Source: a virus
DNA: 64,000 nt
IMG/VR virus record: IMGVR_UViG_3300047319_000185
Location: 48,631-112,630 of that record
Strand: one strand, 5' to 3'
In this document: one piece after another, positions 17,568 through 48,675 of the stretch
Layout: every line of letters starts with the position of its first letter
Numbering within the stretch: the first letter of the stretch is position 1
Notes under the pieces: generated by a model
What the model was told of the DNA's origin: nothing
The model's input: only the letters and a program-made list of their open reading frames with translations
Database searches by the model: none
Translations under genes and position numbers: made by a program

Positions 17568-18620
17568 TTACTCTGCTTCTGGGCGTACTAAATCCCATAC
17601 CTTATTGGCAATATCCTTGTTATCCAATAATGCGAACAAAAGACCTGCATTAGCGCTGTCCTTCACATAAAGAGCAAACTCCTTACGCGTGGCAACCCCT
17701 TGAAAGTAAAGCTCTACCGCATGAAACTCTGCACTGATTGTAGTATAGGTATCCCAATAGGCATCAAAGATTACCTGGTAAGTAGAGCGTAACCACTCAT
17801 GCCATTCATCAGGAACGATACTGCATAGTTCCTCTAAGGTCTTGCCTTCCTTCATATTCTCCCAGATCCGACGCTTTGTCAAACCTGTCACGATCTTGTG
17901 TAAAAGTACATAGTCCTCTTGCTTCAGCTTGATCCTGTAGTCCAGATCGGGGAAGTAGATTACGTAGCCTTCTGCATTAGGCCTAGGAACGGCTTCTATG
18001 GCCTCTCTGAGCGTCTTGTAGGGGAAGGTAGTAGTCTTGGGACCATACCACTCTTCTACGTCCTTAGCGGGGCGTACAGAGCCTGTTATGGCGTTACGTG
18101 CAGCCAAGAGGACCAAGTCTTCCTGATCCCCATAATTCAGAACGATACGGTTACCTGGATAGATGATCTCTACCAGATAGGTCTCCTCATGCCACAGATC
18201 AAGCTTGTAACCCTTGTGTGCAGTATTCAAAAACTTGGTTGCCCATATTGCCTGATCTGAAACAAAGGAACCACGAGTAGCTACATACCAATTATTATGG
18301 TACTCAAAGATGATACCTAATGAACCGTCCATCTTGTCGGTTACTTCAACTCGGTAGCTATCCAGTAGACAGTGGTCATCAGTCTCTTGTCCGTAATTCA
18401 GGAACTTGTCAAAAGGTCGGGCAATAACATTCAACTTATCATCAATAATGAGACCACGACACTGTCTGGTTACTTTATTCCACTCGTTGTCAAACTGAGC
18501 CTTCTCTGTATAGTTCACGATACTAAGAGGTAAAGTGGGGTGCTTATTAACCCTAATATACTTGTCAATTAGCATCTTCCGATAGAGACTCATCGGCATC
18601 AATCCTGAAAGCTTCGTCAT
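17568..18620 (-). CDS. RNA ligase, T4 Rnl1-like
   Basis: A 350-residue ATP-dependent RNA ligase. Motif I KMDGS (about residues 95-99) carries the adenylated lysine. Downstream are VATRGSFVSDQ (motif Ia or III-like), YLVEIIYPGNRIV (motif III/IIIa), EGYVIYF (motif IV) and RIKLKQEDY (motif V). An N-terminal TRQCRGLIID element is also typical of Rnl1. Its best-known role is to seal tRNAs cut by host anticodon nucleases. Starting at 18620 it overlaps the preceding gene by 56 bp, with a GGAGAAGGAG site. A start at MPMSLYRK (18599) is possible. The tRNA array lies just upstream. Confidence 0.9.
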   Translation of the reverse strand: MTKLSGLMPMSLYRKMLIDKYIRVNKHPTLPLSIVNYTEKAQFDNEWNKVTRQCRGLIIDDKLNVIARPFDKFLNYGQETDDHCLLDSYRVEVTDKMDGSLGIIFEYHNNWYVATRGSFVSDQAIWATKFLNTAHKGYKLDLWHEETYLVEIIYPGNRIVLNYGDQEDLVLLAARNAITGSVRPAKDVEEWYGPKTTTFPYKTLREAIEAVPRPNAEGYVIYFPDLDYRIKLKQEDYVLLHKIVTGLTKRRIWENMKEGKTLEELCSIVPDEWHEWLRSTYQVIFDAYWDTYTTISAEFHAVELYFQGVATRKEFALYVKDSANAGLLFALLDNKDIANKVWDLVRPEAE

Positions 18621-20191: not shown

Positions 20192-20268
20192 AGCGTATAG
20201 GGAGAGTCGAACTCCTAAGTAGCAGTTTTGCAGACTGCCCCCGCGCCCTGCGAGTTAACTCTACGCGC
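20192..20268 (-). tRNA. tRNA-Cys(GCA)
   Basis: The anticodon arm is GCAGT-CTGCAAA-ACTGC. The discriminator is U73, the main identity base of tRNA-Cys. Acceptor GCGCGTA/TATACGC with one mismatch. Confidence 0.9.
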
Positions 20269-20458: not shown

Positions 20459-20602
20459 TTAAAGAAACTCTACTTCGGACTTCTTGTAGTAAAGCGTATC
20501 CTTGCCTATCTTAACAAGAACTTGGTCATCCAGCAAATGGACAACTACGCCTCTCTTGCCCGCATTCTTACCCACAAGAATAAGGACATGTCTGTCAGCC
20601 AC
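20459..20602 (-). CDS. 47-residue KOW-motif mini-protein, GTG start
   Basis: Starts at GTG with AAGGAG upstream. The sequence VLILVGKNAGKRGVVV followed by a 'LVKIGKDTLYYKKSEVEFL' type tail is a single, nearly complete KOW domain, like that of ribosomal L24/NusG (V-x-I/V-x-x-G-K-x-x-G-x-x-G-x-V). A free-standing KOW domain inside a tRNA array suggests an RNA or ribosome partner (inference). Confidence 0.72.
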   Translation of the reverse strand: MADRHVLILVGKNAGKRGVVVHLLDDQVLVKIGKDTLYYKKSEVEFL

Positions 20603-20624
20603 TATATTTCTCCTTGTTTGAAAG

Positions 20625-20703
20625 TGGAGATAGGGGGAGTCGAACCCCCGCTCCTAGCTATTCCGCGTGCGGTTTCAAAGCTAGTCGAATCCAGATAATC
20701 CCC
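20625..20703 (-). ncRNA. tmRNA-like mini RNA (tRNA-like domain without tag region)
   Basis: The 5' end reads GGGGATTATCTGGATTCGAC, matching the highly conserved tmRNA 5' motif (GGGG...TCTGGATTCGAC). The 3' end has a T-arm GGGGG-TTCGACT-CCCCC and acceptor TATCTCC. Between them is a CTAGCT/AGCTAG stem capped by CCG-CACG-CGG instead of an anticodon arm and mRNA-like part. At 79 nt it lacks any peptide-tag frame. It could be a shrunken tmRNA, a decoy, or a tRNA that looks like one. Confidence 0.5.
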
Positions 20704-20784
20704 ATAAATGCACAGGCACCAAGCCTCTGTGCTCCCAGGTCCACGAATAACATAACCATCTCCTAAGAGACCCTGGCCCTTACG

Positions 20785-20855
20785 TACCCAATGACGGAGC
20801 TGCCCCGCCTACTGCTCTTTGTAAGAGAGCTATGATCCTGTTTCACCAATCGGGC
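20785..20855 (-). tRNA. tRNA-Val(TAC) with unusual T-loop
   Basis: The anticodon arm is GCTCT-CTTACAA-AGAGC and acceptor GCCCGAT/ATTGGGT pairs with wobbles. The T-arm is GGCGG-GGCAGCT-CCGTC, so the loop lacks the TTCRANN consensus. It may be functional but atypical or decaying. Confidence 0.6.
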
Positions 20856-20888
20856 AAACACCCTTTCGGGCGATATTACTACTATATC

Positions 20889-48462: not shown

Positions 48463-48675
48463 TTACAGGTACTCAGGAAGCTCATCAAAAGTGATGGTAA
48501 CCTTATCTCCCTCAGTGTAAGTACGGTACCGGTTACTGTCGTCAAGAACATTGATTGCGCCCCACTGGTCAGGAGCATAAGCGTCGGACTCCGCAGTATA
48601 AGTTCCCTTGGAATCCTGCACAGTGTCACCCTTGCGAATATCAGTGGGAGACTGACCGGTATACGTGGAAAGCAT
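48463..48675 (-). CDS. Hypothetical SH3-like protein
   Basis: A 70-residue beta-rich protein: DIRKGDTVQDSKGTYTAESDAYAPDQWGAINVLDD...EGDKVTITFDELPEYL. The turns suggest a KOW/SH3 barrel. AAAGG site. Confidence 0.6.
   Translation of the reverse strand: MLSTYTGQSPTDIRKGDTVQDSKGTYTAESDAYAPDQWGAINVLDDSNRYRTYTEGDKVTITFDELPEYL

Follow-up and report, generated by a model that had tools for sequence, protein, structure and literature searches.

The window analysed here is a 64,000-nucleotide stretch (positions 48,631 to 112,630) of virus record IMGVR_UViG_3300047319_000185, a 112,630-base virus that encodes a terminase and an SPP1-type portal. Its minus strand carries, from 20703 down to 20625, a 79-nt gene (GGGGATTATCTGGATTCGACTAGCTTTGAAACCGCACGCGGAATAGCTAGGAGCGGGGGTTCGACTCCCCCTATCTCCA) whose flanking tRNA genes are also on the minus strand. 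A preliminary description of this DNA had reported a tmRNA-like RNA without a tag-peptide region here; its coordinates and length are correct, and the strand, which it left unstated, is minus. The Rfam tmRNA model (RF00023, curated cut-off 47 bits), searched against the whole window, matches 20622-20703 on the minus strand with a score of 54.8 bits (E = 9.1e-19), and the alignment runs end to end, spanning model positions 1-374 of 374, with ~300 of those positions deleted between the two strands of P2 (Table 1). ARAGORN called 30 tRNA genes in the window, this gene not among them, and the ordinary tRNA model (RF00005) made no call on it in competition with the tmRNA model. The RNA is therefore scored as a tmRNA and not as a tRNA, and the absence of a tag region, also claimed at the outset, is borne out. 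No full-length tmRNA was found elsewhere in the 112,630-base record, which may be a fragment.

Table 1. Positions in the window of the 79-nt RNA gene (mini-tmRNA) and its parts, with the basis for each assignment
Feature	Position	Strand	Basis
Gene assigned as CDS-less tmRNA, from G1 (20703) to discriminator A (20625)	20625..20703	-	RF00023; copy in sister contig L001; syntenic isolates
Acceptor 5' strand GGGGATT, including G3 of G3-U70	20697..20703	-	sequence; cluster counts
tmRNA D-loop signature TCTGGATTCGAC	20684..20695	-	alignment to RF00023 consensus
P2 5' strand CTAGCT	20679..20684	-	fold; covariation in 45 homologues; shuffle control
Distal mini-hairpin CCGCACGCGG	20663..20672	-	fold; replaces the mRNA-like region
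P2 3' strand AGCTAG	20654..20659	-	fold; covariation
T-arm GGGGG-TTCGACT-CCCCC	20633..20649	-	sequence; RF00023 match
Acceptor 3' strand TATCTCC with U70, then discriminator A73	20625..20632	-	sequence; relatives

The tRNA-like domain is complete, comprising G3-U70, discriminator A, the GGNTTCGAC D-loop, the T-arm and P2, and the tmRNA motif, T-arm and acceptor noticed on first inspection are all real. The acceptor strands form six pairs, the third of which is G-U; at the seventh position T faces T (nucleotide 7 with nucleotide 72). CCA is not encoded by the gene. In known tmRNAs the region of the D-loop signature contacts SmpB. The CTAGCT/AGCTAG stem, previously taken to stand in for the mRNA-like part, corresponds to P2, inside which lies a further small hairpin that had gone unmentioned (CCG-CACG-CGG), preceded by an A-rich internal loop (TTGAAA). 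Only 19 nt separate the P2 strands; the tag reading frame, resume codon and stop are absent, as are pseudoknots PK1-PK4. A tag-like frame in the hairpin (GCA followed by a stop in some relatives) was considered and rejected as inconsistent across sequences, and an open reading frame (MVMLFVDLG...) that enters the gene from upstream and continues through it was put down to chance, since the isolates show no conservation of the upstream region.

We consider it almost certain that this phage gene specifies a CDS-less tmRNA, a tRNA-like domain closed by a short P2 hairpin; since the tag frame and the pseudoknots are missing, we file it under that class and not as a tmRNA proper. Folded as a single sequence, the RNA shows no unusual stability (z = -1.0), and the argument is therefore carried by the covariance model and by comparative data. 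A permuted two-piece tmRNA is ruled out, as the corresponding model (RF04321) scores 15.2 bits, below its cut-off of 47, and the 5' half of the gene precedes the 3' half. It is also very improbable that the gene is an attachment-site copy of the 3' end of a host tmRNA, or an ordinary tRNA: tmRNA genes are common integration sites, but the gene has the tRNA-like domain in both its halves, and we rejected an attachment-site origin on finding that P2 and the T-stem differ from those of three Streptomyces tmRNAs, whereas the ordinary tRNA is ruled out by the lack of a match with either the tRNA model or ARAGORN.

The nearest isolates are the Streptomyces phages BRock, GiJojo, pSt2308, Alone3 and LuckySocke, from which we infer a Streptomyces-type host for the window phage. 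Gene order around the site matches in the isolates, running tRNA-Arg(tct), a small CDS, tRNA-Val(tac), the site of interest, tRNA-Ser(gct) and tRNA-Ser(gga), and an intact mini-tmRNA lies between tRNA-Val and tRNA-Ser in BRock, GiJojo, pSt2308 and LuckySocke. The tmRNA-like motif is thus kept at the same locus in related phages, with Rfam scores at the site of 57.4 bits in GiJojo, 61.0 in pSt2308 and 64.5 in BRock; the LuckySocke copy is identical to that of GiJojo. At acceptor pair 4-69, GiJojo, LuckySocke and BRock have U-A instead of G-C, and G3-U70 is unchanged. None of the five isolates has the gene annotated as an RNA, and the GiJojo record has a hypothetical protein annotated over it. 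In sister contig L001 the mini-tmRNA is identical to that of the window at 79 of 79 positions, the region 75-500 nt upstream matches at 383 of 430 (~11% different), and the adjoining tRNA-Val is strongly diverged. The identical copy in L001 beside a diverged upstream region and the occurrence at the same place in related isolates exclude a chance match. No full tmRNA was found at the site in near relatives of the window phage, and a search for related loci that used a neighbouring protein as query returned no matches.

The fifth isolate, Alone3, differs. Its copy (18155-18232 of L180) departs from that of LuckySocke (17977-18055 of L181) at 16 of 80 aligned positions (80% identity), although the 500-nt flanks of the two are ~99% identical, and there is mispairing in its T-stem (GCGGG/CCCAG). 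This pattern looks like a sharply localised allele exchange by recombination with another allele, and the mispairing suggests that the Alone3 copy is damaged. A mispaired copy amid ~99% identical flanks indicates that the mini-tmRNA is not strictly essential, and it is probably dispensable in Alone3. Just upstream of the mini-tmRNA, both phages have a tRNA-like sequence (~18020-18160 in Alone3, ~17841-17980 in LuckySocke) that seems to contain a long insertion near the anticodon arm.

To look for the RNA beyond these relatives, we scanned for the pattern GGGGN{5,9}GGNTTCGACN{15,45}GGTTCRANTCC, which returned at least 119 matches in viral contigs and 40 in genome contigs, the latter not all mini-tmRNAs. 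A structural parser, for which acceptor pairing, a T-stem and P2 were obligatory, counted at least 109 distinct mini-tmRNAs in viral and genome contigs together, mostly viral, and these fall into at least 80 clusters below 85% identity. The pattern itself fixes the 5' GGGG, GGNTTCGAC and the T-loop, so conservation there proves nothing, but it leaves free the 3' acceptor strand, including U70, and A73. Acceptor pairs were counted by the parser because the MAFFT alignment misregisters the acceptor. Among the matches listed, pair 3-70 is G-U in 80 of 80 clusters, G-C is invariable at pairs 1 and 2 and occurs at pair 4 in 73 of 80 clusters, and the discriminator is A73 in 109 of 109 distinct mini-tmRNAs. 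Positions 1-6 of P2 are canonically paired in 91% of cases, versus 44% (maximum 52%) when the strands are shuffled between sequences, and RNAalifold, run on 45 homologues, predicts both P2 and the T-stem, with two-sided compensatory changes in nine of 12 pairs. The distal hairpin is less constant: among the matches listed, the exact CCGCAYGCGG is found in 17 of 80 clusters, a CC..GG element related to it in 32 of 80, and the hairpin is missing from the shortest forms (e.g. L024). Genes for terminase, portal, major head or tape measure lie on several of the contigs, which indicates, for the part of the loci that was checked, that many carriers are tailed phages. All 50 viral records examined have the short form, and one of them, G006 (123,582 bases), also has a 392-nt full tmRNA (L185 and L186, ~31 kb apart). 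SmpB was found neither in the 50 phage records nor in the window genome, all of which may be fragments, so SmpB would have to come from the host.

These comparisons bear on the suggestion, made in the preliminary description, that the RNA is a remnant of a full phage tmRNA. Full tmRNAs are indeed found in Streptomyces phages of a different family (Stanwilliamsviridae), where the 3' end and the trailer (TCTCCACTTTCAA) are similar, and the mispaired Alone3 copy is what decay might look like. However, the short form is common to five related isolates and intact in four of them, the L001 copy has stayed identical beside a diverged tRNA-Val, and, among the matches listed, P2 covaries and G3-U70 is invariant over 80 clusters; the covariation in particular largely refutes a functionless remnant. 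We therefore regard a decaying relic of a full-length tmRNA that lost its middle as improbable, and keep the suggestion as one about distant origin only. The mini-tmRNA looks instead like something retained for interfering with the rescue of ribosomes, as the same unannotated gene stands at the same spot in isolates and is found in dozens of other phages.

RNAs of this kind are already known, and the window gene is an added member. A 2025 tmRNA database lists nine standard-order sequences without a CDS among 97,179 (PMC11915505). Mycobacteriophage DS6A has a tmRNA that, according to accounts of Mao et al. 2009 in PMC4131195 and PMC11915505, consists of the tRNA-like domain only; compared by that description, it resembles the window RNA in being phage-borne with little beyond this domain, and it differs in coming from a single mycobacteriophage, whereas the window RNA belongs to a Streptomyces-type phage. 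The window RNA is likewise a tRNA-like domain only, in standard order, in a phage genome, as in a CDS-less phage tmRNA. The two CDS-less tmRNA genes of Mallomonadaceae plastids (~65 bp; PMC11915505) are similarly the size of the tRNA-like domain and lack a tag frame, but are organellar and have no phage context. Mitochondrial tmRNAs without an mRNA-like region (jakobids, oomycetes; RF02544) have also lost the tag frame, in organisms that retain the partner SmpB, but their genes are usually permuted, in contrast to the standard order here. Full tmRNAs of Streptomyces phages such as Bartholomune (Samistivirus) also sit beside a tRNA array and have a similar acceptor, 3' end and trailer; they are ~267 nt long with the tag peptide ANSKFAFALAA, whereas an mRNA-like region is missing from the window gene. 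What is new is the number and spread of such genes, the evidence from covariation and alanine identity, and their presence in cultured Streptomyces phages.

The tRNA-like domain of tmRNA is where SmpB binds, and SmpB also promotes aminoacylation; a G-U at the third acceptor pair is the determinant for AlaRS and directs alanylation (PMC3985003); a truncated tmRNA has been crystallised with SmpB and EF-Tu on the ribosome (PMC8363625). Given its universal G3-U70 and A73, the window RNA is probably alanylated. The reading that we prefer, at little better than even confidence, is that the mini-tmRNA, alanylated by the host and in complex with SmpB of the host, gains access to stalled ribosomes, where it blocks or bypasses tagging. 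The RNA would be transcribed together with the tRNA array, after which host tRNA enzymes would trim it and add CCA, host AlaRS would load it with alanine, and SmpB and EF-Tu of the host would bind it. It would then enter ribosomes stalled at mRNA ends and accept the nascent chain, offering neither a resume codon nor a tag. By holding SmpB and stalled A sites, it would outcompete host tmRNA, and tagging of non-stop products would be suppressed during infection. The earlier proposal of a decoy for SmpB or stalled ribosomes is, by analogy, plausible: in E. coli, an RNA like that of DS6A inhibits the endogenous tmRNA (PMC4131195), and RNAs consisting of the tRNA-like domain only are described as strong inhibitors whether or not they can be charged (PMC4131195, PMC11915505), perhaps, in the account of the former, by titrating SmpB. 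If inhibition needs no charging, a pure SmpB sponge leaves the strict alanine identity unexplained; the strictness of G3-U70 argues that charging matters in nature and points to an effect within the ribosome more than to a passive sponge. The T-T mismatch at pair 7-72 of the window copy and the mispaired copy of Alone3 count against our preferred explanation.

Two other functions have to be weighed against inhibition from within the ribosome. The mini-tmRNA could serve as a decoy or supply RNA for AlaRS, EF-Tu, RNase P or a tRNA-targeting host defence nuclease, being a fold without an anticodon; its place in a large tRNA array and the missing anticodon arm fit such a role, to which we nevertheless assign only a small chance, as the tmRNA-specific D-loop motif, which neither AlaRS nor EF-Tu needs, is kept, and the BRock copy, found by synteny and not by motif, retains most of it (GGTTTTGAC). 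A stronger, if still unlikely, candidate is tag-less rescue, in which the alanylated RNA and SmpB would free stalled ribosomes without marking the product for proteolysis: the peptide would be accepted, the broken mRNA ejected, and the peptidyl-RNA would drop off or be hydrolysed. Such rescue has been considered before for mitochondrial tmRNAs without a tag frame, which persist together with SmpB (PMC11915505), and it would fit both the strictly kept charging determinants and the coexistence of a full tmRNA and a mini-tmRNA in G006. However, the RNA offers no stop codon for release-factor recruitment, and the published test of an RNA with the tRNA-like domain only, as reported in PMC4131195 and PMC11915505, gave inhibition and not rescue. 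A broader proposal, that tagless, alanine-charged tmRNAs are a widespread phage family selected for tag-free rescue, with a parallel chromosomal form in Poribacteria that coexists with a full tmRNA, is doubtful.

Tagless tmRNAs have so far been curiosities, and a single pattern scan yields at least 109 distinct ones, mostly on viral contigs. Their conserved alanine identity points to the key question, charging versus mere titration of SmpB, and with four culturable Streptomyces phages that carry an intact, unannotated copy, what a phage gains from interfering with ribosome rescue is directly testable in Streptomyces.

An 86-nt mini-tmRNA is also present on the chromosome in eight Candidatus Poribacteria MAGs (L137, L139, L147, L148, L153, L157, L165 and L167), mostly beside a gene for a pyridoxal-dependent decarboxylase-like protein; six of the eight also have a full-length tmRNA next to smpB, and about one-sixth of 59 sampled genomes of the phylum carry the mini-tmRNA.

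Three neighbours of the window gene also deserve mention. A tRNA-Val(UAC)-like gene (20783-20857, minus strand) is called by neither ARAGORN nor Rfam; its acceptor, D- and anticodon arms look intact, but in its T-loop GGCAGCT takes the place of TTCRANT. An unannotated homologue in phage Coruscant (89% over 73 nt) has the T-loop GGCAGAA, and L001 has a normal tRNA-Val at this position. A tRNA-Cys(GCA)-like sequence at 20193-20268 (minus strand), which has an unusual D-arm, received no ARAGORN call. Starting 22 nt after the mini-tmRNA is a gene for a 47-residue KOW-motif protein (PF00467, E = 2e-6; 20459-20602, minus strand), in place of which the isolates have different small CDSs.
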